NCBI RefSeq assembly: GCF_003865345.1
Contig: NZ_RMVE01000001.1
Span: 682,001 to 746,000 of the forward strand
Reading direction: 5' to 3'
Length of the DNA stretch: 64,000 nucleotides
DNA from: Nonlabens xiamenensis
GTDB taxonomy: Bacteria; Bacteroidota; Bacteroidia; Flavobacteriales; Flavobacteriaceae
Shown in pieces: positions 2 to 64,000 of the stretch. The number at the start of each line of letters is the position of its first letter. Position 1 is the first letter of the stretch. Made by a program: the position numbers and the translations under genes. Below the pieces are notes generated by a model. It ran no database searches. It was not told the DNA's origin and worked only from the letters and a program-made list of their open reading frames with translations.

Positions 2-2725
2 AAACGGGTACAAGGAATCTCTGGACAGGTCAAGTTTGATGGCGAGCAAACAGATTCCTACGTGGGAGCAGCTGGAGCCCTGGTGCGAGGGACTTTTAAT
101 ATCTCCAGATTTACGGGTCAGGAAGGGAATCAAGGACCGTATAAATTGACGGGCCAGAACGGCGAACTTTTCATTTTGGTGGTTTCGGGAAGTGAACGGG
201 TCTATGTCAATGGGGTTCCGCTCATTCGAGGAGAAAACGCTGATTATATTATTGATTACAACGCTGGTGAAGTAAGATTCAACCCCACATATCCCATTAC
301 TAGCGAGATGCGTATATCTATCGAATACCAGTATAGCGAGCGGAATTTTACAAGATTTATTGGTTATGGAAATGCTGGATTTGCCTCCCAAAAGCTACAA
401 GTAGATACCTACGTCTATACTGAAACCGATGCCAAAAATCAACCCCTCCAACAAAACCTCTCTGAGGAACAAGTGACTATTCTTGCAGAAGCTGGCGATG
501 ATCCAGAATTGGCCATAGCACCCAGTGCCATTTCTGCCGACTTTTCTGAAAATCAGATTCTTTATCGCCGTCAATTTGTTGCTGGACGGGAAGTTTTTAT
601 TTTTTCCCAAGATCCAGATGAACAGTTGTTTAGTGTGAGGTTTAGTTTTGTGGGAGAAGGCAACGGTGATTATCAACTGGTCAATGATCAAGCGATCGCC
701 AATATCTATGAATACGTATCGCCAGTAAATGGCGTTCCTCAAGGGAATTACGCGCCAGTCATACAGTTGTTTACACCTGAAATACTTACCATCGCTGGTG
801 CTAAGGCCCAATACCAACCTACGAATTCTACCCGATTATTTACTGAATTGGCCGCCAGTAATAAGGATCTCAACAAATTCTCAGAATTGGATGATGGAGA
901 TAATAAAGGAGCTGCAGTTAAATTAGCTGTAGAGCAAAATCTACTGAAGAAAGACTCTCTAAAATCCCTCACTGTGCGCTTGAATACAGATTACATTCAA
1001 AGCGAATTCAGAAACGTAGAACGTGTGTACAACATTGAATTCAATAGGGATTGGAACCTAGAATCCACCGTTGGAGATCAATGGTTTACTACTGCTGGTG
1101 TAAAATATCAAAACGATACGATTCTCGCTGCGGCTTATGAGTTTGAACACTTAGAGTTTAGTGACCGATACACAGGCAACAGGCATAATTTTACTACTTC
1201 TTATGATAGGAATGGATGGTTGGCACGCTTTCGCGGAAGCGCACTTACTACCAATTCTGATGTTCAGGAATCAGATTTTTTAAGAATGCAAGCCGATGTG
1301 CTGAAGCGCATTGCCAAGTATTATGCTGGCTTGCGTGTAGAAGGTGAAGATAACCAGCAGCGACTAAAGCCTACAGAGGAACTTACACCACTTTCTCAGC
1401 GCTTTTTAGGCTATGAAGTCTATGCTGGTAGAGGTGACACCACCAGCACTTATGTTGAGATAGGCTATCGGCATCGGGTCAATGACAGTTTGAGAGACAA
1501 CCGTTTAGCACGTGTCAATAATTCTAATAATTATTATGTAAAAGCTCAACCCATTAAAACAGACAATAGTCAGCTAAGGGTGTATGCCAATTACAGGCGT
1601 CTTGAGGATATGATTGGAGATCGGCCGGATGAGGTAAGTCTGAATTCCAGATTGCAATACCAACATAAATTTTTTGATAAAAAGTTGTTATGGAACACTA
1701 CCTACGAGACCAACAGTGCCAGTATTCCAAGGCAGGATTTTACCTACGTGGCGGTCAACCCTGGTCAGGGAAGCTTTACCTGGATCGATTATAATAATGA
1801 CGGTATCCAAGACCTCAACGAATTTGAACAGGCGCAATTTCAAGATCAGGCTAGTTTTGTTAGGGTGCTGCTACCCAATCAGATATTCTTGCCTACCCAC
1901 CAAAATAAATTTTCCCAAACCTTGACCTTAAATCCTATCGGATGGTCTGATCAACAGGGGCTTAAAAAGTTGTTTTCTCAATTTTATAACCAGACCAGTT
2001 ACCTCATTGATCGCATGCTACCACGGGAAGGAGAAAATTTTGATCTCAATCCGTTTAATGAAAGCGATGATCAACTGGGTTTAAATCTCAGTTTCAGAAA
2101 CAGTTTGTTCTTTAATCGAGGCAAGCAAAACTACACCACCAATTATACCTATTTAAGCAGTGCCACAGAAAATCTGTTAAGTATTGGCAGTCTGGCCGCC
2201 GAAATAGAGAGTCACCAGCTCAGTTTCTTGCATAAAATAGCCAATTCATGGCTAATCACGCTCAACGGACAAGCTGGATTTAACTCCAGCAAAAGCGAGA
2301 ATTTCCCCAACCGTAATTTTAAGATTCAGGAATCACTTTTCAAACCCCAGATCTCCTATCTGTTTGATCAAAGCAATAGATTAGAGGTTTTCTATGAGTT
2401 GCAGCAAAAAAGGAATGAAATAGGTGATGTTGCCGACCTCCAACAACAGAATTTGGGTCTGGTTTGGGCATTTAATAAGGCACAACAATATGCGATCAAT
2501 GGAGAGCTGAGATACGTGCGCAATGATTTTGAAGGCCAAGCCTTTTCACCTGTAGGTTTCCAAATGTTAGAAGGATTGCAACCAGGCACGAACTTTACCT
2601 GGTCTCTGCTTTTGCAAAAGAAGATTACCAATTTTCTGGATTTGAACCTCAGTTACAACGGAAGAGATAGTGAGACCGCACCTACTGTCCATACCGGGAG
2701 CGTCCAGCTAAAAGCTTACTTCTAG
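2..2725 (+). CDS. Large surface/outer-membrane beta-barrel-like protein, 5'-truncated by window edge
   Basis: The frame is open from the first bases of the window, so the true start lies upstream; the first internal GTG (62) is not a credible start. About 907 residues are visible. The N-terminal visible part has a beta-sandwich-like segment (YVNGVPLIRG..DYIIDYNAGEVRF) of the kind found in large Bacteroidota surface proteins such as the SprA type. The rest alternates aromatic and polar residues (long beta-strands) and ends in Phe (KAYF), typical of outer-membrane barrels. A DxNxDGxxDxxEF calcium-binding-like loop lies near residue 600. The gene overlaps the convergent M23 peptidase gene by 4 bp. 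I do not recognise a named family; an outer-membrane location is inferred. A one-mismatch copy of the window's palindrome at 1226-1241 encodes RFRGS. Confidence 0.7.
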   Translation, partial: KRVQGISGQVKFDGEQTDSYVGAAGALVRGTFNISRFTGQEGNQGPYKLTGQNGELFILVVSGSERVYVNGVPLIRGENADYIIDYNAGEVRFNPTYPITSEMRISIEYQYSERNFTRFIGYGNAGFASQKLQVDTYVYTETDAKNQPLQQNLSEEQVTILAEAGDDPELAIAPSAISADFSENQILYRRQFVAGREVFIFSQDPDEQLFSVRFSFVGEGNGDYQLVNDQAIANIYEYVSPVNGVPQGNYAPVIQLFTPEILTIAGAKAQYQPTNSTRLFTELAASNKDLNKFSELDDGDNKGAAVKLAVEQNLLKKDSLKSLTVRLNTDYIQSEFRNVERVYNIEFNRDWNLESTVGDQWFTTAGVKYQNDTILAAAYEFEHLEFSDRYTGNRHNFTTSYDRNGWLARFRGSALTTNSDVQESDFLRMQADVLKRIAKYYAGLRVEGEDNQQRLKPTEELTPLSQRFLGYEVYAGRGDTTSTYVEIGYRHRVNDSLRDNRLARVNNSNNYYVKAQPIKTDNSQLRVYANYRRLEDMIGDRPDEVSLNSRLQYQHKFFDKKLLWNTTYETNSASIPRQDFTYVAVNPGQGSFTWIDYNNDGIQDLNEFEQAQFQDQASFVRVLLPNQIFLPTHQNKFSQTLTLNPIGWSDQQGLKKLFSQFYNQTSYLIDRMLPREGENFDLNPFNESDDQLGLNLSFRNSLFFNRGKQNYTTNYTYLSSATENLLSIGSLAAEIESHQLSFLHKIANSWLITLNGQAGFNSSKSENFPNRNFKIQESLFKPQISYLFDQSNRLEVFYELQQKRNEIGDVADLQQQNLGLVWAFNKAQQYAINGELRYVRNDFEGQAFSPVGFQMLEGLQPGTNFTWSLLLQKKITNFLDLNLSYNGRDSETAPTVHTGSVQLKAYF
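1226..1241. repeat. One-mismatch palindrome copy in the first gene
   Basis: CGCTTTCGCGGAAGCG, encoding RFRGS. Confidence 0.6.
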
Positions 2726-4418: not shown

Positions 4419-5789
4419 TTACGAAAATAAATATTTGACCAATTCTTCAATTTTTGAAAACGCCAGAATCTCGGTGCCTTTATTTTTAAAGTTTTGGCTG
4501 GCTGGCGCGATAAAAATCTTTTCAAAGCCTAGTTTGGATACTTCGTTGACCCGTTGTTCCATTCTGCTTACGGGACGTATCTCACCGCCCAGTCCAACCT
4601 CTGCACTGAAACAGTGTTGAGATGAGATTTCTAAATCAAAATTAGAAGATAGAATGGCTGCCACAACGGCGAGGTCGATGGCAGGATCGTCTACGGTAAT
4701 ACCGCCAGTGATATTTAAAAAAACATCCTTTTGTCCCAGTTTAAAGCCAGCTCTTTTTTCCAACACAGCCAGTATCATATTGAGTCTTTTCAAATTGTAT
4801 CCTGTGGCACTGCGCTGCGGTGTACCGTAAACTGCTGTAGAAACCAGGGCTTGTACTTCTATCATCAATGGACGCATACCTTCCATGGTAGCGGCAATTG
4901 CTGTACCACTCAATGGATTCCCTCGTTGGGAAATCAATATTTCGCTTGGGTTGACTACCTCTCGCAAACCATGACCTAACATTTCATAGATGCCAATCTC
5001 GTGGGTACTCCCAAATCTGTTTTTTAGCGCCCTTAATATTCGGTAGGTGTGATTGCGATCACCTTCAAATTGTAGAACGGTGTCTACCATATGTTCCAAA
5101 ATCTTTGGACCCGCGATATGCCCATCTTTGGTAATGTGACCGATCAACAGCACTGGGGTTGCAGTTTCTTTGGCAAATTTGATAAGTTCGCTGGTACACT
5201 CCCTAATTTGGGATACACTTCCTGGGGAGCTCTCAATATGGTCCGTCTGTAAGGTTTGGATAGAATCTATAATGACCACATCGGGCTCCACTTCTCCAAT
5301 CTGCCTAAAAATGTTTTGCGTTTTGGTCTCAGTAAGGATGTAGCAATCCTTAACCTCCTTTTTAATTCGGTCCGCGCGCATCTTAATTTGCTGTGCACTT
5401 TCCTCTCCAGACACATAGAGTGTTTTAAACGGAAGGTTGAGGCACACCTGTAATAGCAGGGTTGATTTTCCTATGCCAGGTTCACCTCCTAATAAACTCA
5501 CGGATCCGGGAACCAGACCACCGCCCAATACCCGATTAAATTCTGTATTTGTAGTATCCAGTCTGGGGTTCTCGCGCGCATCGATTTGAGAGATCAATTG
5601 TGGGGTTGGGGTACGCTTTCGCGAAAGCGTAGACTCCTTACTGCCTTGATCCCAGGAGGCTTTGTCCTGTTTTTGAACCACCTCCTCCACCAATGTATTC
5701 CATTCTTTACAAGAGGAGCACTGTCCCTGCCATTTGGCATGTTGAGCGCCGCAATTCTGGCAGAACCAGGTGGTTTTTGTTTTGGCCAT
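4419..5789 (-). CDS. radA: DNA repair protein RadA
   Basis: 456 residues, normal for RadA. It has an N-terminal four-Cys zinc finger (CQNCGAQHAKWQGQCSSC), a RecA-like ATPase with Walker A GGEPGIGKSTLL, the RadA signature KNRFGST, and a C-terminal Lon-like domain (VFLNITGGI..DPAIDLAVVAA..GEIRPVSRME). RadA is a DNA helicase that drives branch migration during recombination. The ATG overlaps the stop of the upstream esterase-like gene by one base (TAATG), so the two are probably translationally coupled. Residues 55-59 (LSRKR), in the linker between zinc finger and ATPase, are encoded by a perfect copy of the window's palindrome (5614-5629, symmetric out to 5612-5631). Confidence 0.97.
   Translation of the reverse strand: MAKTKTTWFCQNCGAQHAKWQGQCSSCKEWNTLVEEVVQKQDKASWDQGSKESTLSRKRTPTPQLISQIDARENPRLDTTNTEFNRVLGGGLVPGSVSLLGGEPGIGKSTLLLQVCLNLPFKTLYVSGEESAQQIKMRADRIKKEVKDCYILTETKTQNIFRQIGEVEPDVVIIDSIQTLQTDHIESSPGSVSQIRECTSELIKFAKETATPVLLIGHITKDGHIAGPKILEHMVDTVLQFEGDRNHTYRILRALKNRFGSTHEIGIYEMLGHGLREVVNPSEILISQRGNPLSGTAIAATMEGMRPLMIEVQALVSTAVYGTPQRSATGYNLKRLNMILAVLEKRAGFKLGQKDVFLNITGGITVDDPAIDLAVVAAILSSNFDLEISSQHCFSAEVGLGGEIRPVSRMEQRVNEVSKLGFEKIFIAPASQNFKNKGTEILAFSKIEELVKYLFS
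5612..5631. repeat. Palindrome copy with 20 bp perfect symmetry, in radA
   Basis: The 16-bp core at 5614-5629 has two further symmetric bases on each side. It encodes LSRKR in the zinc-finger/ATPase linker. Confidence 0.9.
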
Positions 5790-6958
5790 TAATCTTTTTC
5801 CTGAAGCAATTCTACTTTATCCAATACGTCATCTTTGGTAATCCCTACTGCGGGCTCCAGAGCATAAGCCGCATTAAAGGCCTTGACAGCTCTGCTATTG
5901 CGTCCTAAACCTTCATACCCCAAACCTTCTACATAACGACCGTATAACAAGTCTGGATACTCCTTGTGGGCCATATCGCCTATGTCGATGAGTTGTTCCC
6001 AGTCTTCTTTGGCAGCAACATAATCTGCGATGGTGACTAAATCCACCAGTCTCAATTTCATCTCCACACCATAGACCTCTCTGATGTAATCATATTTGCT
6101 CTGGATGCGGTCAATAACGCTGACCATATCCTTGGTTTTTTCCTTGCCTTTAAATTTTTCTTCTTCAGCCAGATCTTCTTTCATCAACACATCTTCATCG
6201 ATCAATTGATATTCTTTAAAGATAAAATCCAAGCCTCTGGGAATGGCTTGTCCGGCCACAGAATATTTATTGGTATCCGTAAGGGCGTCGTGTTTGACGT
6301 GTACCTTGTTATTGGTCTGGAACAGTGAATCAGCCTGGCTGTCCATCATATCTTTGACAATGGCATCGCGCTTGGCCGTAGCTACATAAAAGAATTGGTG
6401 CTGATCGAGTTCTCCCAATTTGTTGACCAGGTTATTTTGAATGAGTTCGGAGTATTGTGGTTCGATCTGGATAAACGCATCGATTTTTACATCCTTGCGC
6501 ATCAAATAGTAGCTGGCGAGATTGGCGGTGATATCTTTACCTACAATAACGGTAAATGGCGCAGTGCGAAATTCCTCCTCCATCGTTGCTTTAATTTCCA
6601 TCAAAAAGCCCATGAATTTACCAGCTTGTTCAGTAGGGAGGCCTTTGTTGAAATCAATGGCTGTCTCGTCCCATCGACTTTCACGCTGATTGATCCCGAC
6701 TACCAGCGCTTCTGGCATTTGATCCCAATAGCTCAAGTAGTCAACCATCCCAGCAACTGGTTCAAATAGATAATCTCCATCCAGAACGATAATGAGCGGG
6801 TACGTTTTTTCTACATTTTTTGAATAATTGCGAGGTTTGAGAATTTTGACATTGCGTTCAGAACCCAGTATTTCACTGGGAAAACTGCGGTACATGGCTT
6901 GACCTGATGTCAGGGCCACGCAAAAAAACAGGCTGGCCAGTAGGAATAAGCTTTTCAT
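5789..6958 (-). CDS. Secreted esterase-like alpha/beta-hydrolase with TPR-like tail, nucleophile Ser replaced
   Basis: 389 residues with a signal peptide (MKSLFLLASLFFCVALTSGQA). The body looks like the esterase D/enterobactin-esterase fold (YPLIIVLDGDYLFEP, VVGINQRESRWDET). Where the GxSxG nucleophile elbow should be, the sequence reads VGKDITAN, with Asp in place of Ser. The C-terminal 90 residues resemble TPR repeats (LLYGRYVEGLGYEGLGRNSRAVKAFNAAYALEP). It is therefore either a non-catalytic relative or an enzyme using Asp, which some alpha/beta-hydrolases do. It overlaps radA by one base. The substrate is unknown. Confidence 0.75.
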   Translation of the reverse strand: MKSLFLLASLFFCVALTSGQAMYRSFPSEILGSERNVKILKPRNYSKNVEKTYPLIIVLDGDYLFEPVAGMVDYLSYWDQMPEALVVGINQRESRWDETAIDFNKGLPTEQAGKFMGFLMEIKATMEEEFRTAPFTVIVGKDITANLASYYLMRKDVKIDAFIQIEPQYSELIQNNLVNKLGELDQHQFFYVATAKRDAIVKDMMDSQADSLFQTNNKVHVKHDALTDTNKYSVAGQAIPRGLDFIFKEYQLIDEDVLMKEDLAEEEKFKGKEKTKDMVSVIDRIQSKYDYIREVYGVEMKLRLVDLVTIADYVAAKEDWEQLIDIGDMAHKEYPDLLYGRYVEGLGYEGLGRNSRAVKAFNAAYALEPAVGITKDDVLDKVELLQEKD

Positions 6959-7052: not shown

Positions 7053-8036
7053 TTATCGATGGCGGGTGGTCTGTTGAAATGATAACAACACAAAAGACAA
7101 TAGCCCATACACAAGCACCAACAATGTTTGAGAGATCCAAAGTATCCAACCAAAGGAAGTCCCTAGTGTTTCGGGTACATTAAAAAACAATAAAACTGCA
7201 GCGATGAATAAAGGATAAGCTCCAAAACCGCCGTTGGTAAAAGCTACCGCAAAGCTACCAGCTACAAAGGCACACAAAATGGCGGGTATTGCTATCGAGG
7301 AAGTTCCAGGAAGGGCAAATGTGCTGATGTAGAACATCAATACGTACATTCCCCAAATAAATAGTGTATGACCTAAATAGGCCCATTTTTGTTGCATGGT
7401 CCATATGGTGAAAAAGCCGTCCTGTATACCTCTCAAAAATCCCTTGATTTTCCCCATAAGATTTAAGTATCTGAGTAGGATAATCAGAATGGACAAAATA
7501 ACCAGGGCTACCACACCGTAAATCAATAATTGTTGGGTATCCGCTTTCGCGAAAGCGTCACTCAACAAGCCCCAGAAAAACTGTATAATTTCATCCCCGG
7601 CCATAGAAATCGCTGTCACACTGATGATCAACAGGATGATCAAATCCAATACCCGCTCTGCGATGATGGTCCCAATAGCTTTGTCAAATGCAATACCACT
7701 GTGACGATTAACGATAGCAGCTCTTGAAATCTCACCACTTCTGGGAATAAATATATTCATAGCATACCCTACACCGATGGCCATGATATTGGTGATCAAT
7801 TTAGGAGTTTTTCCTAGTCCGTCTAGCATATAATTCCATCGCCAAGCCCTGGAAAGATGACTGGCAAGAGCTATCAACATAGATAGTAATACCCAACGAT
7901 AGTCTGCCATTTTGATGTAAGTGTAGATATCGTTGCGCTGATCATCTGTAAATTGATGATAAGAATAATAGATGAGGAATACCCCAAGAGAAAGTGGGAG
8001 TAGGATTTTGAGTAATTTGAAGATCTTATTTTTCAC
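7053..8036 (-). CDS. Flippase-like integral membrane protein (lysylphosphatidylglycerol synthase TM / AglD-YbhN family)
   Basis: 327 residues with about eight hydrophobic helices and the family features SHLSRAWRWNYML, IFIPRSGEISRAAIVNR and TIIAERVLDLIILL. The family includes the membrane half of MprF and proteins thought to move lipid-linked precursors; the substrate here is not identifiable. It starts 3 bp downstream of panD, so the two are probably cotranscribed. A perfect palindrome copy at 7542-7557 encodes AFAKA in the loop LSDAFAKADTQQ between two helices. Confidence 0.85.
   Translation of the reverse strand: MKNKIFKLLKILLPLSLGVFLIYYSYHQFTDDQRNDIYTYIKMADYRWVLLSMLIALASHLSRAWRWNYMLDGLGKTPKLITNIMAIGVGYAMNIFIPRSGEISRAAIVNRHSGIAFDKAIGTIIAERVLDLIILLIISVTAISMAGDEIIQFFWGLLSDAFAKADTQQLLIYGVVALVILSILIILLRYLNLMGKIKGFLRGIQDGFFTIWTMQQKWAYLGHTLFIWGMYVLMFYISTFALPGTSSIAIPAILCAFVAGSFAVAFTNGGFGAYPLFIAAVLLFFNVPETLGTSFGWILWISQTLLVLVYGLLSFVLLSFQQTTRHR
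7542..7557. repeat. Palindrome copy in flippase-like gene
   Basis: Perfect 16-mer, encoding AFAKA on the minus strand. Confidence 0.9.
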
Positions 8037-14641: not shown

Positions 14642-15175
14642 TTATGCCGTAAAGCGTTCATCTGCCTCCATTATTTCCCCACAATTGTCGCAGGTGCGCA
14701 ATTCTTTTGAGCCATAGAATTCTTTGAATCTGGGGAGAAAATCCTTTTCTATATCCTCTAGTACAAAAAAAGTTTCATGTAACTTATGGTTGCAGTTATC
14801 GCAATACCATAACAATCCATCTACGGCACCGGCATCCAACCGCTTACGTTCAATCACCAATCCAATGGAGTTTTCATGGCGTACTGGAGAATGCGGAATT
14901 TTGGCTGGGTGCAGATACATATCACCTGGTCCTAGTTTCATCGTGCGTTTTTGGCCTTCATCCTGTACATGGACTTCAATCTGGCCTTCAATCTGATAAA
15001 ATAATTCTTCCGTTTCATTGTAGTGATAATCTTTTCTGGCATTGGGTCCAGCAACAATCATAACAATATAGTCACCTGCATCACGGTAAAGATTTTTGTT
15101 GCCCACGGGTGGCTTTAATAAATCTCGATTTTCCTCGATCCATTGGTGCAGATTGAATGGGGCTTGAATAGGCAT
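14642..15175 (-). CDS. nbaC: 3-hydroxyanthranilate 3,4-dioxygenase
   Basis: 177 residues, a cupin dioxygenase that opens the ring of 3-hydroxyanthranilate in the kynurenine route from tryptophan to quinolinate and NAD. The iron site is visible as H51-x5-E57 (YHYNETEELFYQ) and a later His (PAKIPHSPVRH). The C-terminal rubredoxin-like metal site typical of bacterial enzymes has two CDNC motifs (WYCDNCNH and RTCDNCGE). A perfect -7 box lies 25 nt upstream. No other kynurenine-pathway gene is in the window. Confidence 0.95.
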   Translation of the reverse strand: MPIQAPFNLHQWIEENRDLLKPPVGNKNLYRDAGDYIVMIVAGPNARKDYHYNETEELFYQIEGQIEVHVQDEGQKRTMKLGPGDMYLHPAKIPHSPVRHENSIGLVIERKRLDAGAVDGLLWYCDNCNHKLHETFFVLEDIEKDFLPRFKEFYGSKELRTCDNCGEIMEADERFTA

Positions 15176-15223: not shown

Positions 15224-16186
15224 CTATTGATCCAATGACTTTTTGATTTCCTGCATCAATTGGTCTCCTCCTGAGGACAGAATGTGTGCAGATTGCGCTT
15301 TCGCGAAAGCGATAAGATCAGCTTCCTCCTGTAAGTTATTCCAAGCCATTCTTTCCTGAACATCTAAACGTTTCTTTCCGTCAAGACTGAGCAAACATCC
15401 CTTAAAATGAAGTTGACCAGCCTCTACTTGTGCCAGAGCTCCAATGGGGGCCGTGCATCCGCCCTCTAGCTCTCTTAGAAATATGCGCTCGATGTTGACA
15501 CAGGTTTCGGTGGTTTGATCGTTTAAGGGCTTTAATGCTTCCAGTAAATCTGTATGTTTTCCCATGGCCGCCACCATCATTGCGCCTTGGGCAGGAGCCG
15601 GAATAAAACTATCGAGGTCGGCGGATTCAAATCCGTAGGTTGATTTGAGCTGACCCAGTAGTCCAATACGATCCAGCCCTGCTTTGGCAAAGATCGCTGC
15701 ATGCCAGTCCTGATTCTTGTGTAATTTAGACAAGCGCGTATTGACATTACCGCGCAGATCAACCACCTTATGATGCGAATACATATGAAGCCATTGAGAT
15801 TTACGCCTTAAACTACCAGTGGCAATGGTGATGGAGTCATCTGGGTTAAAACCTTTTTTATACACCAAAAGATCCTTGTGAGACGCCCGAGTGAGAATCG
15901 CTGCCTGCACCATTCCTTTAGGCAATCGTGTAGGGACATCCTTGAGACTGTGAACGGCGATATCTATTTCCCCTTTGATCAAGGCAAGGTCCAGGGTTTT
16001 AGTAAAAATACCAGTAATACCCATTTCATATAATGGCTCGTCCAGGTTGAGATCGCCTTGTGATTTGACCGGATGTAGTTGAGTAGGCTGACCTAGAGCC
16101 TCCAATTGTGCCTGCACAGTTTTTGCTTGCCACATGGCGAGTTCGCTATCACGTGTGCCTATTCTGATAATTTTTTCCAATGCCAT
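15224..16186 (-). CDS. hemC: Porphobilinogen deaminase (hydroxymethylbilane synthase)
   Basis: 320 residues. It polymerises four porphobilinogen units into hydroxymethylbilane on a dipyrromethane cofactor attached to Cys, here in the motif EGGCTAPIGA. Other signatures are IRIGTRDSELAMWQA, VHSLKDVPTRLP and LRGNVNTRLSKL. It follows orf185 by 7 bp and hemA beyond that, in a hemA-orf-hemC operon. A perfect palindrome copy (15296-15311) encodes AFAKA near the C-terminus (DLIAFAKAQSAHIL), where hemC proteins vary. Confidence 0.97.
   Translation of the reverse strand: MALEKIIRIGTRDSELAMWQAKTVQAQLEALGQPTQLHPVKSQGDLNLDEPLYEMGITGIFTKTLDLALIKGEIDIAVHSLKDVPTRLPKGMVQAAILTRASHKDLLVYKKGFNPDDSITIATGSLRRKSQWLHMYSHHKVVDLRGNVNTRLSKLHKNQDWHAAIFAKAGLDRIGLLGQLKSTYGFESADLDSFIPAPAQGAMMVAAMGKHTDLLEALKPLNDQTTETCVNIERIFLRELEGGCTAPIGALAQVEAGQLHFKGCLLSLDGKKRLDVQERMAWNNLQEEADLIAFAKAQSAHILSSGGDQLMQEIKKSLDQ
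15296..15311. repeat. Palindrome copy in hemC
   Basis: Perfect 16-mer, encoding AFAKA on the minus strand. Confidence 0.9.
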
Positions 16187-18147: not shown

Positions 18148-18163
18148 CGCTTGCGCGAAAGCA
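18148..18163. repeat. Degenerate palindrome copy upstream of the AraC-type gene
   Basis: CGCTTGCGCGAAAGCA differs from the 16-mer at two positions. It is intergenic. Confidence 0.55.
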
Positions 18164-20617: not shown

Positions 20618-20640
20618 AGAATTATCTGATGTGGTCATAT

Positions 20641-20656
20641 CGCTTTCGCGAAAGCG
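20641..20656. repeat. Palindrome copy, intergenic, inside a larger inverted repeat
   Basis: Perfect 16-bp CGCTTTCGCGAAAGCG in the gap before the metal-binding lipoprotein gene. It is flanked by an 8-bp inverted repeat, ATCTGATG (20624-20631) and CATCAGAT (20670-20677). Confidence 0.9.
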
Positions 20657-20720
20657 AACTTCTATCAAGCATCAGATGAGATCAACGCTCTCAATTCAAA
20701 TGAATATTAAATATGTAGAT

Positions 20721-21641
20721 ATGAAAAGACTATGGATGGTGTTAAGCTTATCCCTGCTTTTGGGCGCTTGTGCCGACAATACCAAAAAAGAAGGTTTACC
20801 GGAGCATCTTTCTGTTGTGACTACGACTACCATGATCACAGATATGGTTGAGCAGATCGGTGGTGATGCTATTGAAGTCCAAGGCTTGATGGGCAGTGGG
20901 GTCGATCCTCACCTGTACAAGGCCAGCGAAGGAGACGTGACCAAACTCTACAATGCAGACTTAATTATTTATAACGGGTTGCACCTGGAGGGTAAGTTGG
21001 TAGAGGTTTTTGAAAAAATGAACGAGCAGGGTAAAAAAACCTTGGCAATCAGTGATGCACTGGATCAAAGCACGCTGATAGGGAGTGATTATTTTGCCAG
21101 CAGTTATGATCCGCATATCTGGTTTGAGATTGATTATTGGACCCAAATGACTTCCTATGTCACTGAAGAATTGAAGAAAATAGCACCGAAGCATGCAGAA
21201 ACTTTTGAATCCAATAGCCAGAATTACCTGAAGCAGATCAACGCTTTAAAAACTGAACTCACAGCATCGATTGGTCAGTTGCCTGAAAACCGTCGAATAC
21301 TGGTCACTGCCCACGATGCCTTTAATTATTTCGGTCGCAGTTTTGGCTTTCAGGTAGTGGGGCTGCAAGGACTGTCAACAGCTACAGAAGCTGGGGTGCA
21401 AGACGTCCAACGCATGACTCAATTTATTATTGACAATAAGATTAATGCAATTTTTGTAGAAAGCAGTGTGCCTAGACGCACAGTAGAAGCCTTGCAGGCT
21501 GCGGTCAAAGCCCAGGGACACGAGGTCGCAATTGGTGGCGAACTCTTCAGCGACGCGTTGGGTAGTGCCGGTACTCCCGAAGGGACTTATGTTGGAATGT
21601 ATAAACATAATGTGGAAACCATTGTTAAAGCCCTTAAATGA
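20721..21641 (+). CDS. Metal ABC transporter substrate-binding lipoprotein (ZnuA/TroA type)
   Basis: 306 residues from the ATG at 20721, where a proper lipoprotein signal begins (lipobox LLGA-C17). An upstream in-frame start at 20631 would add 30 residues encoded partly by the palindrome and is rejected. Cluster A-I features: metal-ligand candidates [25 protein letters not shown] and [14 protein letters not shown], and C-terminal [18 protein letters not shown] [13 protein letters not shown]. It captures Mn, Zn or Fe in the periplasm. It overlaps the ATPase gene by 4 bp. Confidence 0.93.
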
Positions 21642-33180: not shown

Positions 33181-33206
33181 AACACAAGTTTGCTTGAAGG
33201 TATTCC

Positions 33207-33220: not shown

Positions 33221-33319
33221 AATAAGGTCTTTAACAAATTTTAATAATTATTGGCAAAAATGTAAGAATGCTGTGTATGAAACTAAAATATCTTTACCCA
33301 AATATTTAAATTAACCATT

Positions 33320-37322: not shown

Positions 37323-37356
37323 AACTGACCACAACACCCATCAAAACAAAAGACAA

Positions 37357-46174: not shown

Positions 46175-47317
46175 ATCTCTTCTTTTTCTAATCACAAGAT
46201 ATTCATTGCTTTAGGGAGCAATCTGGGCAATAGGGAAGCGCATTTGATCCGGGCGACACTCTTGATTGAACAACGCCTGGGTTTGATCATTGCTGCGGGC
46301 AGTGTGTACGAGGTGCCAGCATTGGGCTTTGATGGTGCAAGTTTTTTAAACACTGCTATCTTGGTCCATACCTCAAAAACTGCTAGAGAATCTCTTGACA
46401 TTTTACAGGAGATCGAGCGTGAGATGGGGCGACTTCCCAAAAAAGGTGATAGCTACGAGGATCGATCAATTGATTTGGATATTCTATTGTACGACCAGCA
46501 GGTGATTCAAGAGTCGGATTTATGCATTCCTCATCCGCATTTACAGGATAGAAATTTTGTGATGCAGCCTTTAGTGGACATTGCTTATGACGTCCAGCAT
46601 CCAGTTTTGGGTGCAACCATGGTAGAACTGGCTAGCGCACTACAACCATTGGAAACGACGGTGGCATTGGAAATTCCGCTTTCGCGAAAGCGATACCCCA
46701 TCCATCAATTGAATTTCATCGCCATTGAAGGAAATATTGGCTCCGGAAAGACCAGCCTGACCCATAAAATTGCTGCAGACTTCAATGCCAAGCAAGTACT
46801 GGAACGCTTTGCAGACAACCCTTTCCTACCATTATTTTATGAGGACAAGGAGCGTTATTCTTTTCCATTGGAGATGTCTTTTCTGGCCGACAGGTACCAG
46901 CAGCTCAGTGATGATGTGGCCCAACAAGACCTTTTTAAGGAGTTTACCGTGGCCGATTATTACGTCATTAAGTCTTTGATTTTTTCAAAAATCACCTTGG
47001 ACGATGAGGAATATGCTTTATACAAAAGACTGTTCAATATGATGTACAAAGAGTTGGTTAAACCTGACTTGTACGTTTATCTCTATCAGACAGAAGAGCG
47101 TTTACTGCAAAACATCAAAACAAGAGGCAGAGAATACGAGCAAAATATTCAGGCCAGTTATTTGTCCCAGATACAGCAAGGCTATGCAGAATTCATACGT
47201 TCACAAAGAGAATTGAATGTCAAAGTGATCGATGTGACCGATCTGGATTTTGTGCACCGCCAGGAGGATTACCTGAAGCTACTCCAGGCCATCGTGGAGA
47301 AGACAACTGATGAATAA
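46175..47317 (+). CDS. FolK-deoxynucleoside kinase fusion with no canonical start codon
   Basis: Two enzymes in one chain. The N-terminal part is 6-hydroxymethyl-7,8-dihydropterin pyrophosphokinase (HKIFIALGSNLGNREAHL, RSIDLDILLYDQQ, PHPHLQDRNFVMQPLVDI), a folate enzyme. The C-terminal part is a deoxynucleoside kinase (FIAIEGNIGSGKTSL P-loop, RFADNPFLPLFYED, TRGREYEQNIQ). The joint (IPLSRKRYPIHQ) is encoded by a perfect palindrome copy (46677-46692). The frame is open from 46154 and has no ATG, GTG or TTG before the essential GSNLGNRE. The first TTG is at 46244, inside the FolK domain. ATC at 46175 (then SSFSNHKIFIALG) or ATT at 46166 are the best candidates. The start coordinate is therefore tentative. 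Confidence 0.8.
   Translation: MSSFSNHKIFIALGSNLGNREAHLIRATLLIEQRLGLIIAAGSVYEVPALGFDGASFLNTAILVHTSKTARESLDILQEIEREMGRLPKKGDSYEDRSIDLDILLYDQQVIQESDLCIPHPHLQDRNFVMQPLVDIAYDVQHPVLGATMVELASALQPLETTVALEIPLSRKRYPIHQLNFIAIEGNIGSGKTSLTHKIAADFNAKQVLERFADNPFLPLFYEDKERYSFPLEMSFLADRYQQLSDDVAQQDLFKEFTVADYYVIKSLIFSKITLDDEEYALYKRLFNMMYKELVKPDLYVYLYQTEERLLQNIKTRGREYEQNIQASYLSQIQQGYAEFIRSQRELNVKVIDVTDLDFVHRQEDYLKLLQAIVEKTTDE
46677..46692. repeat. Palindrome copy at the FolK/kinase joint
   Basis: Perfect 16-mer, encoding LSRKR between the two domains. Confidence 0.9.
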
Positions 47318-49809: not shown

Positions 49810-51708
49810 ATGAGCGACCAGTTAAAACACGAGTGCGGTATTGCACTCATCCGCCTTCTCAAACCTTTAGATTACTATAAGGAAAAGTACGGGACGGCCT
49901 ACTACGGCATCAATAAGATGTATTTGATGATGGAAAAGCAACACAACCGCGGCCAGGACGGAGCGGGCTTTGCCAGTATCAAATTAGATGTCAAACCTGG
50001 TCAACGTTATATCTCCCGCGTGCGCAGTAATGCAGCTCAACCGATTCAAGACATTTTTGCTCAAATTAACGAGCGTATCAATTCAGAATTGGCTGCACAA
50101 CCTTCAATCAAAGATGATATTCAGGCCCAAAAAGCACAGATACCTTATATAGGTGAATTGCTCATGGGTCACGTGCGCTATGGAACTTTTGGAAAAAACA
50201 GCATTGAATCTGTACATCCATTCTTGCGACAAAACAACTGGATGCACCGTAACCTGATCATGGCTGGAAATTTCAACATGACCAATGTGTTCAAATTATT
50301 CAACAAATTGGTCGAGTTGGGGCAACATCCCAAAGACATGGCAGACACTGTGACGGTCATGGAAAAGGTTGGACATTTTCAGGATCGTCAGGTCAGTAAG
50401 CTCTATAAGAAATTTAAATCCCAAGGTCTGACTAAAATTGAGGCCAGTCCTAAGATTGCCGAACAGTTGGATGTAGCCAAAGTATTGAGAAAAAGTGCCA
50501 AGGATTGGGATGGTGGTTATGCCATGGGTGGTTTGATGGGTCATGGTGACGCCTTTTTATTGCGGGACCCTGCTGGGATCAGACCGGCCTATTATTACCA
50601 GGATGATGAGGTGGTGGTAGTAGCTAGTGAACGCCCAGTAATTCAGACAGCTTTTGATGCGGCCTTTGATGAAGTCAAGGAGTTGGATCCGGGCAAGGCC
50701 ATCATCATCAAAAAGAACGGTAAAGTTTCCCTGGAGCAGATCGTCAAGCCACTCGAGCGAAAAGCCTGTTCGTTTGAACGCATCTATTTCTCACGTGGTA
50801 GTGATGCTGAGATTTATCAGGAACGCAAGATGCTGGGAAAACTATTGTTTCCAGATATCATGGAAGCTATCGATCACGATATTGACAATACAGTTTTCTC
50901 CTATATTCCCAACACGGCAGAAACTTCATTTTACGGCATGGTAGAAGAAGGTCATGCGGTTTTAAATCAGCAGAAAAGAGACTACATTATCGCTGGTGAA
51001 GGTAAGCTCACGGCAGAGGAGGTTGACCGTACGCTTTCGCGAAAGCTGAGAACTGAAAAAATTGCCATTAAGGATGCTAAGCTACGCACCTTTATAACGG
51101 AAGATTCTTCTCGGGACGACCTTGTAGCCCATGTTTATGATGTCACTTATGGTGTGGTAAAACCAGAAGACCACCTGGTGATTATTGATGATTCAATCGT
51201 GAGAGGGACCACACTCAAAAAATCCATCTTAAAAATGATGGACCGACTGAGGCCAAAGAAAATTGTTGTAGTGTCCAGTGCTCCACAAATACGTTATCCG
51301 GATTGCTATGGAATTGACATGGCAAGATTAGAAGGGTTGGTAGCCTTTAGGGCTGCGTTGGAACTGCACAAAGACCGCGGAACCTACGATATTGTAGAAG
51401 AAATCTACCACAAATGTAAATTACAGACAGAGTACGAAGATGAAAATGTGGTCAATCATGTCAAGGAATTGTATGATCCCTTTACAGACCAAGAAATTTC
51501 AGATAAAATCGGGGAATTACTGTCAGACGAAGACCTGAATGCTGAAGTCAAAATCATTTATCAGACGGTGGAGAACTTACACCAAGCTTGTCCCAAAAAT
51601 ATGGGAGACTGGTATTTTACCGGGAATTATCCTACTGATGGAGGCAATCGAGTGGTAAATCGCGCTTACATTAATTTCTACGAAGGCAATGATGAGCGTG
51701 CGTATTGA
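49810..51708 (+). CDS. Long PurF-like amidophosphoribosyltransferase
   Basis: 632 residues, about 120 longer than a standard PurF. The class II glutaminase domain has the nucleophile Cys in HECGIALIRLL after an eight-residue leader, and MEKQHNRGQDGAGFAS and GHVRYGTFGKNS. The usual NGN is changed (MAGNFNMTN). The PRTase domain has the PRPP loop LVIIDDSIVRGTTLKKS, and KIVVVSSAPQIRYPDCYGIDM follows. Insertions lie within the N-terminal domain and at the C-terminus. It may catalyse the first purine step or be a divergent paralogue. A palindrome copy (51033-51046) encodes LSRKL. Confidence 0.85.
   Translation: MSDQLKHECGIALIRLLKPLDYYKEKYGTAYYGINKMYLMMEKQHNRGQDGAGFASIKLDVKPGQRYISRVRSNAAQPIQDIFAQINERINSELAAQPSIKDDIQAQKAQIPYIGELLMGHVRYGTFGKNSIESVHPFLRQNNWMHRNLIMAGNFNMTNVFKLFNKLVELGQHPKDMADTVTVMEKVGHFQDRQVSKLYKKFKSQGLTKIEASPKIAEQLDVAKVLRKSAKDWDGGYAMGGLMGHGDAFLLRDPAGIRPAYYYQDDEVVVVASERPVIQTAFDAAFDEVKELDPGKAIIIKKNGKVSLEQIVKPLERKACSFERIYFSRGSDAEIYQERKMLGKLLFPDIMEAIDHDIDNTVFSYIPNTAETSFYGMVEEGHAVLNQQKRDYIIAGEGKLTAEEVDRTLSRKLRTEKIAIKDAKLRTFITEDSSRDDLVAHVYDVTYGVVKPEDHLVIIDDSIVRGTTLKKSILKMMDRLRPKKIVVVSSAPQIRYPDCYGIDMARLEGLVAFRAALELHKDRGTYDIVEEIYHKCKLQTEYEDENVVNHVKELYDPFTDQEISDKIGELLSDEDLNAEVKIIYQTVENLHQACPKNMGDWYFTGNYPTDGGNRVVNRAYINFYEGNDERAY
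51033..51046. repeat. Palindrome copy in the PurF-like gene
   Basis: Perfect 14-bp core, encoding LSRKL. Confidence 0.88.
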
Positions 51709-52623: not shown

Positions 52624-52631
52624 TATATTTG
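52624..52631 (+). promoter_or_regulatory. -7 promoter box immediately before the AddA-like gene
   Basis: TATATTTG fits TAnnTTTG and ends 3 nt before the ATG at 52635, implying a leaderless transcript. No good -33 element was seen, so a chance match is possible. Confidence 0.4.
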
Positions 52632-52634
52632 GGC

Positions 52635-55600
52635 ATGACCCATTTGTCGACTACTTTTTATAGTGCCAGTGCTGGCTCCGGTAAAACTTATACGCTGGCA
52701 CGAGATTATTTGAGTTTACTATTCCAGCATCCCGGTTCCCGTGCTTACCGTCAGATTTTGGCCGTAACCTTTACCAATAAAGCTGTCCAGGAAATGAAGG
52801 AGCGAATTCTGGAATACCTTCTAGAATTTACCCGTCCAGAGCCTGCCACGAAAGTCTTGGGTATCAAAACTCATATCCAGGAGCTGACGCAGTTGGATGA
52901 TCGCGCCTTTAGAAATAAAGCCCAGCATATTCATGATCGACTGCTTCACGACTATTCTGCATTTGATATTGTGACCATCGATGCTTTTAATCATCGCATC
53001 TTGCGCACCTTCTCCAAGGATATTGATTTGCCAGCCAATTTTGAGGTGGAGATGGATTTCAAGCGTTTGGTGTCCAAAGCGATCCATCAATTACTTTCCA
53101 GGGCGGGCCAGGAGCCAGAGTTGACCAAATTTTTAGTGGAGTTCTCTCTAGGGAAGATTGATGAGGGCCGGAGTTGGGATATCGAATACGATCTACACGA
53201 TATCGCTGAGTTGATTCCTAAAGAAAATCACTTTGCCTATCTCAAGCAACTCAAAGATAAAAAGATGGAAGATTTTGTACGCTTTCGCGAAAGCGTACAG
53301 CAGAAAATCATAAAAGCACGGGTCGAGCTTGAAGAAATGGCTGGTAAAATTGTGGGACAAATTGATCAGAATGGACTACAGGCAGAGGATTTTTTCTACA
53401 AAGCTGATCGCTGCTACAAATTAATCATGCATTCTGCCCAAGGTAAATTTGACTTGGATCCAACCAAAGGTTATATCGCTGGAATGGCTGATGCAAGTCT
53501 ATATAACAAATCGGCCAGTCCAGAAGCGCAGGATAGCATTGAAGCTCTACGACCAGCCCTGGTAGAACTCGCTGAACTGTATACAAGTAATTTTGGCCAG
53601 GTAGCCTTTTACAAGAATATTCTCAAGCACTTAACTCCATTGTCTTTGTTGAATGAGCTCATGCTGGAGATTGAAAAGATCAAGGAGGCAGAACAAATTG
53701 TGCCCATCTACGAATTTAATGCTCTTCTTTCAGAGCAAATCAGGGACGAGCCCGCACCTTTTATATATGAACGGCTAGGGGAACGATATACGCACTTTTT
53801 TATTGACGAATTTCAAGATACGAGCAAGTTGCAGTGGAGCAATATGCAACCGCTGATAGCAAATGCATTACAACAGGAACGCGACTCTGGGCAACGAGGG
53901 AGCCTGATGTTAGTGGGGGACGCCAAACAGTCCATTTACCGATGGAGAGGAGGGGATGCAGATCAATTCTTAGACCTGTTGGCCGGTGATTATCTGTTTG
54001 AAATGCCCAAACTCAATAAAAGTCTGGAAGCCAACTGGCGTAGCTTTGATCAAATCATTGAGTTTAATAATGAATTTTTTGATTTTTACGGTCAGCATTT
54101 GAATCACGAGGTCTACAAAGGATTGTACGCTGATTTTCTCAAGCAAGAAACCAGAAACAAGCCAGGAGGTTATATACAAATTGATTTTTTGGACAAAGAC
54201 CAAGCGGCAATTCACGAGATAGAGGACGAAGAGATGGATAGTCCTTACCCTGTTCATGTGATGCGGCAGGTAGAACAAGCCCTGGCCAGCGGATTTAATC
54301 CTGGCGATATTTGTGTTTTAGTGCGTACCAATAAACAAGGACATGCCATTGCCCAATATCTGGTATCACAACACATGCCTGTGGTTTCTGGAGACAGTCT
54401 CCTGGTCCATGCCTCTGCCAAAGTGCAGTTACTGGTCCATTTTATGCGTATGCTACAGACGCCCGATCAAAAAGCTCCGAGATTCGATTTTTTACTGGCT
54501 TATGCCAAAGTATTTGATGTGGATCATTTGAATCAATTTATTTCCCTGTATATGGAGCAGGATTGGAGATCATTTTGTGAGTCCTTCCCGACACAGGAAG
54601 AGGTATTGTTGGATTCCGCTTTCGCAAAAGCGCCATTATTCCAAGCCACTGAATCTGTTGCCGCGGCGCTTGGATTGTTTGGAGAACCAGATACTAGGCT
54701 ACAGGCCTTTTTGGAGTTTGTATTTGAATATTCCAGAGGTTATGAAGTAAGTTTGTCCGGCTTTTTGGAACATTGGGGACTCAAGCAGGAAAATTTAAGT
54801 GTTCCAGCCAGCGCCGATGTCGATGCGGTACAGATCATGACTATTCATAAAAGTAAAGGGTTGGAATTCCCAGTAGTCATCGTTCCTCATTGTGATACTC
54901 AAATTGACGATATAAGGAAAGCCATGGCATGGGTGCCTGTAGACCCAAATAATCATGAGGGTTTTGAAAACGTATACATCGCTCTCAACAAAACCAATTT
55001 GCTTTATCCAGATCCTGCACCTGCCGTCTATCAGCAGGAATTATCCAAAGCTCAAATGGACCATATCAATACGCTCTATGTGGCCTTTACCAGAGCTAGG
55101 GAACAGCTGTTCATCAGTGCCATTGACAAAGAAATTAAAGGTGATAGCCGTAATTATAGCCAGTTGTTAAAACAGTTTGTCGAGCAGGTGAGCTGGGAAG
55201 AAGTTCAACATGAAGGTTGGGTTTCGATAAGGCAGGGATTCTCGCAGCGGAAAAGCGAGCCATCGCCTGGCGATCAAATTCAACAAATGGAAAAGTATGA
55301 AGTGAATATTGATCCAGAAAGAATTGCCATTTCCACACGCAAAGGTAGTCTATGGGCTTCTGGTGCAATTGAGTCTATTAATAAAGGTAACCTGCTTCAC
55401 GAATACCTAGCCAAGGTCAAGTACGATGTTAACCTCGATCAAGTAAGCTCGCAGGTCAATCGCGATACGTCGTTATTAGAGGCAGAGCGAGAATCTCTGA
55501 TCGATAAGATGGGTAAAGTAGTCAACCATCCAGCGATCGCTCAGTTTTTTAAAGCTGAATATACTGTTATTAACGAGTATCCGATCTTATTGCCAAACGG

Positions 55601-55796
55601 TAAGCGGCTGATCCCTGATCGTTTGGTGATCAAGGATGACCAAGTAGTCATTATGGACTACAAAACTGGAGCGCTGGATGATCGTCATAAAACGCAGGTG
55701 GATGGCTATGCCCAACAGTTGGCCTTGATGGGTTGGCGGGTAACAGGTAAGATATTGGTCTATACCGATCAAATGGAAATCGTTAAATGGTCTTGA
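52635..55796 (+). CDS. AddA-like UvrD-family helicase/exonuclease
   Basis: 1053 residues from ATG 52635. SF1A helicase motifs: Walker A SASAGSGKTYTLARDYL, motif Ia LAVTFTNKAVQEMKERI, motif II HFFIDEFQDTSKLQW, motif III VGDAKQSIYRWRGGD, motif V VQIMTIHKSKGLEFPVV and motif VI TLYVAFTRAREQLFIS. The C-terminus has a PD-(D/E)XK nuclease (EYPILLPNGKRLIPDRLVIKDDQVVIMDYKTG). It processes double-strand breaks for recombination, as AddA of an AddAB pair; no addB is seen in the window. It carries two palindrome copies: 53276-53299 (24 bp, RFRES) and a one-mismatch copy at 54617-54632 (AFAKA). Confidence 0.92.
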   Translation: MTHLSTTFYSASAGSGKTYTLARDYLSLLFQHPGSRAYRQILAVTFTNKAVQEMKERILEYLLEFTRPEPATKVLGIKTHIQELTQLDDRAFRNKAQHIHDRLLHDYSAFDIVTIDAFNHRILRTFSKDIDLPANFEVEMDFKRLVSKAIHQLLSRAGQEPELTKFLVEFSLGKIDEGRSWDIEYDLHDIAELIPKENHFAYLKQLKDKKMEDFVRFRESVQQKIIKARVELEEMAGKIVGQIDQNGLQAEDFFYKADRCYKLIMHSAQGKFDLDPTKGYIAGMADASLYNKSASPEAQDSIEALRPALVELAELYTSNFGQVAFYKNILKHLTPLSLLNELMLEIEKIKEAEQIVPIYEFNALLSEQIRDEPAPFIYERLGERYTHFFIDEFQDTSKLQWSNMQPLIANALQQERDSGQRGSLMLVGDAKQSIYRWRGGDADQFLDLLAGDYLFEMPKLNKSLEANWRSFDQIIEFNNEFFDFYGQHLNHEVYKGLYADFLKQETRNKPGGYIQIDFLDKDQAAIHEIEDEEMDSPYPVHVMRQVEQALASGFNPGDICVLVRTNKQGHAIAQYLVSQHMPVVSGDSLLVHASAKVQLLVHFMRMLQTPDQKAPRFDFLLAYAKVFDVDHLNQFISLYMEQDWRSFCESFPTQEEVLLDSAFAKAPLFQATESVAAALGLFGEPDTRLQAFLEFVFEYSRGYEVSLSGFLEHWGLKQENLSVPASADVDAVQIMTIHKSKGLEFPVVIVPHCDTQIDDIRKAMAWVPVDPNNHEGFENVYIALNKTNLLYPDPAPAVYQQELSKAQMDHINTLYVAFTRAREQLFISAIDKEIKGDSRNYSQLLKQFVEQVSWEEVQHEGWVSIRQGFSQRKSEPSPGDQIQQMEKYEVNIDPERIAISTRKGSLWASGAIESINKGNLLHEYLAKVKYDVNLDQVSSQVNRDTSLLEAERESLIDKMGKVVNHPAIAQFFKAEYTVINEYPILLPNGKRLIPDRLVIKDDQVVIMDYKTGALDDRHKTQVDGYAQQLALMGWRVTGKILVYTDQMEIVKWS
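53276..53299. repeat. Palindrome copy extended to 24 bp perfect symmetry, in the AddA-like gene
   Basis: The 16-bp core (53280-53295) has four further symmetric bases on each side. It encodes VRFRESVQ in a linker of the helicase. Confidence 0.9.
54617..54632. repeat. One-mismatch palindrome copy in the AddA-like gene
   Basis: CGCTTTCGCAAAAGCG, encoding AFAKA in DSAFAKAPLFQ; the second copy within this gene. Confidence 0.6.
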
Positions 55797-63466: not shown

Positions 63467-63486
63467 CGATATTCTTATCAGTTGAT

Positions 63487-63549: not shown

Positions 63550-64000
63550 ATGTATAAAAACCTATTATTCAGTGTGTTGGCGGTTATCGCTTTCGCGAAA
63601 GCGGCACATGCACAGTCATCGGGACAAGCCAAACAATACAAAGTCAAGACAGTAGCTTTCTACAATCTTGAGAATCTTTTTGACATAGAGGATGATACAT
63701 CGATTAACGACGAAGCCAGTCCGATCATGGAAATGGCCGAAGGTGTCAGAGCCTCTGTATATGAGAAAAAGCTCACCAATATGGCCCGAGTAATCAGAAA
63801 GATCGGTGCTGCCAAAGCGCAAACTGCTCCTGCTTTGGTCGGAGTCTGTGAGATTGAAAACAGAAAAGTGCTGGAGGACCTTATTAATCATCCACTGCTG
63901 AGAGAGTTTGACTACGGTATTGTACATTACGATTCTCCTGACCGCAGGGGTATTGACACTGGCCTGCTTTATAAAAAGGCAGATTTCAAAGTGTTAAACA
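63550..64000 (+). CDS. Secreted endonuclease/exonuclease/phosphatase family protein, cut by window end
   Basis: About 150 residues are visible; the gene continues past the window. The signal peptide is MYKNLLFSVLAVIAFAKAAHAQ, and its C-terminal part (AFAKA) is encoded by a perfect palindrome copy (63588-63603). The family signature follows: VKTVAFYNLENLFDIEDD, APALVGVCEIENRKVLEDL and DYGIVHYDSPDRRGIDTGLLY. These enzymes cut nucleic acids or phosphodiesters; export implies a role in scavenging phosphate or nucleotides outside the cell. It diverges from the TonB receptor operon, which often accompanies it in Flavobacteria. Confidence 0.92.
   Translation, partial: MYKNLLFSVLAVIAFAKAAHAQSSGQAKQYKVKTVAFYNLENLFDIEDDTSINDEASPIMEMAEGVRASVYEKKLTNMARVIRKIGAAKAQTAPALVGVCEIENRKVLEDLINHPLLREFDYGIVHYDSPDRRGIDTGLLYKKADFKVLN
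63588..63603. repeat. Palindrome copy in a signal-peptide coding region
   Basis: Perfect 16-mer, encoding AFAKA at the end of the endonuclease/phosphatase signal peptide. Confidence 0.9.

Follow-up and report, generated by a model that had tools for sequence, protein, structure and literature searches.

How a 16-bp perfect palindrome comes to lie again and again in the genes and gaps of one bacterial chromosome, and what keeps it there, is the question raised by 64,000 nucleotides of Nonlabens xiamenensis DNA (contig NZ_RMVE01000001.1, positions 682,001 to 746,000), hereafter the window. We counted 13 exact copies of the 14-mer GCTTTCGCGAAAGC in the window, compared with 0 in 100 dinucleotide shuffles, and 18 matches to the 16-mer CGCTTTCGCGAAAGCG, a perfect palindrome, at up to 3 mismatches, compared with 0.10 expected. 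These 18 comprise 10 perfect copies, 3 with an intact 14-mer core, 4 near copies and 1 weak copy. The recount agrees with a preliminary description of this DNA that had reported the 13 exact 14-mers and the 10 perfect 16-mers; its near copies at 1226, 18148, 34893 and 54617 were also recovered, together with one at 40207 (3 mismatches) that it had not listed. The site is real, old, kept at the DNA level and evenly spaced, and the data suggest a so far undescribed self-recognition or chromosome signal.

An abundant, evenly spaced site kept at the DNA level

The genome from which the window was taken contains 553 copies of the 14-mer in 3.68 Mb, and 22 other genomes of the marine genus Nonlabens (Flavobacteriaceae) contain 288-857 each, the reversed control giving 0 in every case. 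In 400 kb of the home contig, sites with 0, 1, 2, 3 and 4 mismatches to the 16-mer number 48, 23, 8, 3 and 16, respectively; about 200 palindromes built from shuffled half-sites gave means of 0, 0, 0.06, 1.1 and 12 in the same DNA (largest values 0, 0, 2, 16 and 83). The genome-wide count lies far above expectation; the near-expectation value that would have spoken against the preliminary description was not seen. In four Nonlabens genomes, perfect and one-mismatch sites stand at 48:23, 33:28, 73:15 and 89:27, and the density is 1 per 3.4-6.6 kb.

Conservation was measured between the Nonlabens genomes G000 and G005, using the sites that fall within blastn alignments (31 of 79 in G000 and 27 of 67 in G005), a choice that favours conserved places. 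Among 26 aligned sites with at most 1 mismatch in G000, 13 are identical over all 16 bases; the same holds for 7 of the 934 windows of 16 bases that neighbour them in these alignments (mean identity 0.69). The copies in window genes are read in all three frames, as LSRKR, AFAKA or RFRES, and outgroups lack the encoded residues at the sites in both proteins compared (RadA and the second DnaE). The proposal that the palindrome is maintained as DNA, and not for the residues it encodes, was borne out on each of these points. Most aligned copies are also free of gaps (30 of 31 on the G000 side and 23 of 27 on the G005 side), the other 4 G005 copies lying opposite gapped G000 alignment.

Two genes bear on how copies arise. 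The radA gene (4419-5789, minus strand) carries a perfect 16-mer at 5614-5629 in a linker of variable length; the copy is perfect in 18 of 20 congeners, with variable flanks. Since linker length differs between genera and outgroup RadA has no LSRKR, substitution alone is not demonstrated at this place. Genome G580, from another genus, has a one-mismatch copy in the same RadA linker in another reading frame, which we read as a probable independent gain. The second DnaE-family polymerase gene (37297-40485, plus strand) has a perfect copy at 37729-37744 that is perfect in 7 of 8 Nonlabens genomes, has 1 mismatch in the eighth, and is absent at that place in 16 of 16 other genomes compared. The sister-placed genome G691 encodes QFQPNE at this site without a gap, so the polymerase-gene copy was gained by substitution, the one gain cleanly traced in these alignments. 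The same gene, of about 1,060 codons, also contains the weak copy (40207-40222, 3 mismatches); a 1,456-aa DnaE frame lies elsewhere on the contig (C5:810583-812649).

The sites repel one another, giving an even spacing with an exclusion zone. Coefficients of variation (CVs) of the intervals between 14-mers are 0.59 (G000), 0.73 (G005), 0.47 (G002), 0.52 (G020) and 0.51 (G379, of another genus, with 21 sites). Intervals shorter than a quarter of the mean number 1 of 63, 2 of 48, 2 of 64, 1 of 87 and 1 of 19 in these genomes, in the same order, compared with 14, 10.6, 17, 22 and 4.3 in simulations. Site pairs less than 1 kb apart are rare; one breach of the exclusion zone is a pair in G002 (L103:11362-11484) with copies 109 bp apart, at the end of an open reading frame (ORF) and just after it. 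Counts in 20 evenly placed 20-kb samples have a mean of 4.4 and a variance of 3.1 in G002, and a mean of 5.8 and a variance of 2.7 in G020. No density gradient from origin to terminus was visible in 20 samples on each of two single-contig chromosomes. Of the positional biases raised in the preliminary description, that in spacing is present (CV 0.47-0.73) and that along the oriC-ter axis did not appear in these samples.

Site-free stretches of 11-34 kb also occur. We found 11 of these and inspected five, of which three hold accessory genes and two hold core genes: a 20-kb stretch of G002 has NRPS-like (nonribosomal peptide synthetase-like) genes, as read by eye, a 34-kb stretch of G005 has defence genes (AIPR, Z1, C5-methylase and a group II intron protein), and one in G000 has a SusC/SusD-type locus. 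That every long gap consists of acquired DNA was contradicted by 2 of the 5, whose core genes indicate that gaps are not only recent acquisitions.

Sites lie both in and between genes. In the same four Nonlabens genomes, 121 of 336 sites are outside called ORFs (20/71, 19/61, 39/88 and 43/116; 28% to 44%), and called ORFs cover 86-92% of the DNA; these coding fractions are approximate because ORFs were called by a simple length rule. The 215 coding sites use frame 2 most often (123, compared with 47 in frame 1 and 45 in frame 0). Densities in tandem, convergent and divergent gaps are alike (0.73, 0.69 and 0.74 per kb; overall 0.21), and a promoter or terminator role was rejected for this reason.

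The unit extends beyond its core, consisting of the 16-bp palindrome and a dyad-symmetric, C-poor, T-rich flank of about 30 bp on each side (profiles from 336 and 366 sites). On the 5' side of each strand, T is favoured at positions 3, 6, 9 and 12 outward, C is depleted, and the sequence is GT-rich to about 30 bp; the bias is alike at coding and non-coding sites. The flanks do not pair beyond their composition within single sites (1826 matches over 16 positions compared with 1819 expected, z 0.2; coding z -1.7, non-coding a weak 1.9), so that the unit seems to be recognised as duplex DNA and not to act as a hairpin. A hairpin or RNA element was accordingly rejected overall, the weak non-coding value notwithstanding. 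The sequence-specific recognition event postulated in the preliminary description is implied, in dyad-symmetric form, by the symmetric core and flank bias. Its suggestion that the central TCGCGA could be a methylation target found no support, and neither did this hexamer as the functional unit: outside the palindrome this hexamer occurs 22, 25, 25 and 47 times in four Nonlabens genomes, compared with Markov expectations of 29, 26, 22 and 57, and these counts give no signal of avoidance or methylation.

The copies of the window

The remaining copies, to which, like those above, no strand is assigned, lie in ORFs except for those at 18148 and 30841. Perfect 16-mers occur in genes for an LPG_synthase_TM-family membrane protein (7542-7557; gene 7053-8036, minus), the porphobilinogen deaminase HemC (15296-15311; 15224-16186, minus), a ComF-like protein (25828-25843; 25598-26287, minus; comF model score under its cut-off), an HPPK-deoxynucleoside kinase fusion (46677-46692; 46244-47317, plus) and a UvrD-family helicase (53280-53295; 52629-55796, plus), a putative AddA, as also named in the preliminary description. 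Others are found at the 5' end of a ZnuA-family gene (20641-20656; 20631-21641, plus), in an intergenic region (30841-30856), and at 63588-63603, where an ORF starting at 63550 (plus) and exiting the window reads the copy as AFAKA within its signal-peptide region, just as had been described. The exact 14-mer core with 1 outer mismatch is present in a DUF2461 gene (33206-33221; 32521-33237, minus), a DUF4130 gene (42439-42454; 41779-42582, plus) and a PurF-like gene (51032-51047; 49810-51708, plus; purF model score under its cut-off). The near copies have 1 mismatch at 1226-1241 (CGCTTTCGCGGAAGCG; gene 62-2725, plus) and at 54617-54632 in the helicase gene, and 2 mismatches at 18148-18163 (intergenic) and at 34893-34908 in an SRAP gene (34834-35661, plus).

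Several of these places could be followed in congeners. The membrane-protein site at 7542 is kept within 2 mismatches in 18 of 20 congeners and is perfect in 11; the kinase-fusion site at 46677 is perfect in G005 too. Variants can be shared as well: the one-mismatch form at 1226 recurs at the orthologous place in G007, G014, G010 and G005, and the PurF-like variant at 51032 is identical in G005. At 54617, G005 holds another one-mismatch variant, and its SRAP ortholog differs from the 16-mer by 6 mismatches at the place of 34893. Nothing aligned at the hemC, ZnuA-family and 18148 sites in 20 congener regions.

The G005 ortholog of the copy at 63588 is split beside its dyad by 21 extra bases. 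It is one of three copies in 400 kb of G005, with one more in G379, in which a second small palindrome, CTGCCTGCCGGCAGGCAGG or a variant, lies within about 1 base of the dyad of a split 16-mer (G005 L063 near 386-426, L077 near 15125-15165 and L078 near 6486-6526; G379 L182 near 1352-1400). CTGCCTGCCGGCAGGCAGG is also found outside the 16-mer in G580 and G355, and it looks like a small element targeting the palindrome.

Lineages, phages and islands that carry the palindrome

The array is confined to few lineages. Any copy was found in 32 of 395 genomes drawn from the order, the 16-mer in 48 of 397 from the family, and the 14-mer in 24 of 392 from the phylum; some genomes are shared between these samples, and Nonlabens is among them. 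Among 474 sampled genus labels, only Nonlabens (g1), g58 and g273 are dense. The g58 genome (G379) contains 857 14-mers and 630 16-mers, the g273 genome (G580) an intermediate 153 16-mers, and the next highest counts are 11-16 (G458, G669 and G355). In 120 kb of G580, 12 copies with 2-3 mismatches accompany 12 perfect or one-mismatch copies, proportionally more degenerate ones, as if the array were under construction or being lost. No comparable short repeat was seen in 17-20 kb of each of 7 motif-poor genomes, which are small samples. Among the open-access papers listed on Nonlabens, Dokdonia, Flavobacteriaceae, palindromes, uptake sequences and competence, none described the motif.

In order to place these lineages, we used trees of the polymerase (24 of 29 genomes, the other five giving only the main DnaE) and of RadA (without G144 and, among congeners, G011 and G013). 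The polymerase tree unites G379 with G580 (100/100) and places Nonlabens together with the motif-poor G691 (99/98). A single clade of all motif-rich rows was rejected by the approximately unbiased test (p 0.0146), with the clade defined by motif content and the test run once the tree had been seen. The RadA tree likewise separates the motif-rich lineages. The array may have been built on two occasions, the recognising factor may have moved, or other lineages may have lost the array.

Viruses carry the palindrome as well. Among IMG/VR contigs, whose hosts we infer, 41 stretches contain the 16-mer, and phage genes are clear in several of them (portal, major head, tape measure, terminase and tail sheath). 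Neighbouring copies with up to 2 mismatches are 0.8-8.7 kb apart in these stretches (median 4.3 kb; 29 intervals, near-duplicate contigs included), and since the contigs were chosen for carrying the 16-mer, this density is biased upward. A tyrosine integrase was found in 9 of 27 motif-bearing virus records, many of which are fragments. Two phages of Nonlabens, P12024S and P12024L, whose annotations include ERF and YqaJ-like recombination proteins, are free of matches at up to 3 mismatches over 71 kb.

Copies also occur on an island. Of the 16 copies in G355, 12 lie within one 60-kb stretch holding a copper/heavy-metal resistance island (L152-L154, contig 3, 30-90 kb), with P-type ATPases, RND pumps, a multicopper oxidase and an MmeI-like restriction-methylation gene. 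Matching copy spacings (933 and/or about 2446 bp) recur in G137, G484, G505, G691, G383 and others, which points to metal-resistance island DNA that may travel between genera; some of the matching sites in flavobacterial genera are near a 616-aa frame with a ParB domain.

As a side observation on the genus, congener G019 encodes a chloride-pump rhodopsin that, over 271 residues, shows 100% identity to PDB 5fjg, presumably the Nonlabens marinus S1-08 chloride pump. Six of 23 Nonlabens genomes (G022, G019, G020, G008, G004 and G009) have three rhodopsin genes each, chloride- and sodium-pump types included, and the window's own genome gave no rhodopsin match. The chloride-pump rhodopsin comes from N. 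marinus S1-08 according to one account (PMC4999514).

Candidate explanations for the array

We tentatively favour, at slightly less than an even chance, the reading in which the palindrome serves the whole genome as a self-recognition signal, in the manner of the DNA uptake sequences (DUS) of Neisseriaceae and the uptake signal sequences (USS) of Pasteurellaceae, here palindromic, in Bacteroidota, and spread by molecular drive. A surface or periplasmic DNA-binding factor in Nonlabens and the two other genera would prefer DNA with the dyad-symmetric site, and site-bearing alleles would enter the cell, and be incorporated into the chromosome by recombination, more frequently than site-free ones. 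Sites would then accumulate by molecular drive wherever the protein code permits, and stay perfect; a second site within about one transferred fragment would gain no favour, creating the exclusion zone, and temperate phages and integrative elements resident in the chromosome would gather sites too. We infer that Nonlabens is competent, that a binding factor exists, that uptake is biased and that drive operates. We hold with rather more reserve, as a possible model, the complete version, in which the signal would work in either orientation, a dimeric receptor would read the 16-bp core with its symmetric flanks of about 30 bp, drive would yield an even array of 500-850 copies, and the system would have arisen in, or been passed on between, two flavobacterial lineages, whose temperate phages and integrative elements would collect the mark.

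The uptake reading explains most of the observations because it accounts for accumulation without selection at each site, the exclusion zone, placement by tolerance only, the integrase-bearing phages, and absence from P12024S, P12024L and some accessory loci. DUS and USS, which form lineage dialects, share with the palindrome hundreds of exact copies, even spacing, genic and intergenic placement, and a sharp mismatch profile. We found the USS in the Haemophilus temperate phage HP1 at 17 sites compared with 0.17 expected (about 100-fold excess), with a CV of 0.51 and 0 of 16 intervals below a quarter of the mean, a presence in a temperate host phage that parallels the palindrome in integrase-bearing phages. 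A significantly even spacing of uptake sequences is credited to Karlin et al. in one paper (PMC1939737). For DUS, one report states that a single copy is enough, that a close second adds nothing, and that spacing matches the size of conversion fragments; its 1892 perfect and 815 one-mismatch DUS give a ratio bracketed by those of the palindrome (PMC2397512). USS are given as about 1,000 bp apart in another (PMC7811141). Closer to Nonlabens, the flavobacterium Riemerella columbina is reported to favour its own DNA in transformation, and the frequent words mentioned for it are only A- and T-rich ones (PMC7965970).

Several points weigh against an uptake signal. The known uptake sequences treated in PMC1939737 are not palindromic, and that account judges them less even than a compaction signal should be. 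At its density the palindrome is sparser than DUS or USS, for which about 1 per 1-1.5 kb is indicated (PMC2397512, PMC7811141). ComEC is present in 23 of 23 genomes, motif-bearing and motif-free alike, and so does not discriminate; no account of natural competence in Nonlabens was found among the open-access papers listed. Two site-free stretches hold core genes (arginine biosynthesis and SUF), and our spacing yardstick for USS comes from the 17 sites of a single phage. Perfect palindromy is seen more typically at the sites of dimeric proteins inside the cell, and we know of no candidate uptake receptor in Bacteroidota. The palindromy and the lack of a receptor in hand are the reasons that we hold the uptake reading no more firmly. 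Unlike DUS and USS, the palindrome is perfectly symmetric, with a longer core and lower density, and occurs in Bacteroidota; as the described members of those families are asymmetric, we do not file it with them.

The main rival, a serious one though on balance unlikely, is an intracellular dimeric protein that needs anchors every few kilobases, for nucleoid architecture, supercoiling or segregation control. Selection at each site would keep the sites perfect, and resident phages and islands would carry them to fit the host chromosome. Perfect twofold symmetry with a dyad-symmetric flank, duplex recognition as indicated by the nil overall covariation of the flanks, even spacing and the lack of a visible density trend all agree with such a protein. 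Against it, hundreds of weak sites would each have to be under selection, some stretches (11-34 kb) do without any, and the motif-rich genomes share no Noc-like extra ParB. We know of no bacterial architecture protein with such a site set. Noc and ParB sites (NBS, the Noc-binding sites, and parS) are 14-16 bp palindromes with TTT...AAA arms that occur in tens, not hundreds; unlike these, the palindrome numbers hundreds and shows no terminus gap in the samples taken, and no dedicated ParB paralog was found for it. A ParB search gave one match in 7 of 8 Nonlabens genomes, in G379 and in G580, and the eighth (G015) has a second match in a 616-aa frame of a type also present in motif-poor genomes. 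A ParB/Noc assignment was rejected, as no Noc-like second ParB is common to the 8 Nonlabens searched.

It is improbable that the palindrome is a Chi-like signal, bidirectional by its symmetry, which would control an AddAB-type exonuclease and load RecA on the GT-rich strand 5' of the core. The density near that of E. coli Chi (44 sites in 200 kb), the GT-rich flank 5' of the core on each strand, and the UvrD/AddA-like gene inside the window would fit, as would the carriage of the motif by some phages and not others: integrase-bearing phages have it and P12024S and P12024L, with their ERF and YqaJ-like proteins, do not, which recalls Chi-free lambdoid phages. Lambdoid phages without recombinases are reported to enrich Chi, and those with a recombinase and a RecBCD inhibitor to lack it (PMC3784561). 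The E. coli Chi sites of our yardstick are, in contrast, randomly spaced (CV 1.03), Chi is short and asymmetric where the palindrome keeps 16 bases strictly and in perfect symmetry, and the motif is dense in only 3 genera despite widespread AddAB.

Much less likely still is a methylation-linked palindrome of the HIP1 type, in which an orphan methyltransferase would read the core and a repair bias would enrich the site. HIP1 (GCGATCGC) of cyanobacteria is the nearest iterated palindrome, likewise in and between genes and lineage-limited, with a function described as debated and a tie to methyltransferases (PMC4390886). In Synechocystis, 5,648 copies of its 10-base form are recorded (PMC1939737). 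Unlike the palindrome, HIP1 is 8 bp, far denser, and contains methyltransferase sites; there is no core-methylation signal in Nonlabens, since TCGCGA near expectation makes a 6-bp methylation target an unlikely driver. Usual methyltransferase targets are, moreover, shorter than 16 bp.

Spread of the palindrome as a very small mobile element, through transposition or gene conversion, which the preliminary description had also allowed, is hardly credible as the main cause and appears largely refuted by the alignments: the many near-identical copies across many genes, the 4 gapped G005 copies and the varying RadA linker would suit it, but orthologous positions are shared by species about 70% identical, most aligned copies are gap-free, the polymerase-gene copy arose without a length change, and spacing is even. 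Repetitive extragenic palindromic (REP) and Rickettsia palindromic elements, which are inserted mobile or hairpin elements, resemble the palindrome in being dispersed; they differ in that the latter is mostly gap-free in alignments and has flanks that are unpaired overall. The Chi-like, Noc-like, methylation, hairpin and mobile-palindrome readings all fit worse than uptake or a chromosome protein.

The uptake sequences described in the papers cited here belong to two proteobacterial families. If the uptake reading is true, a palindromic signal in Bacteroidota would test what such signals need and whether drive suffices to build them; should the site be bound by an intracellular protein instead, the array would be a very dense, strictly maintained collection of binding sites for that protein. 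In either case, the three motif-rich genera, one of intermediate count, offer a natural time series.

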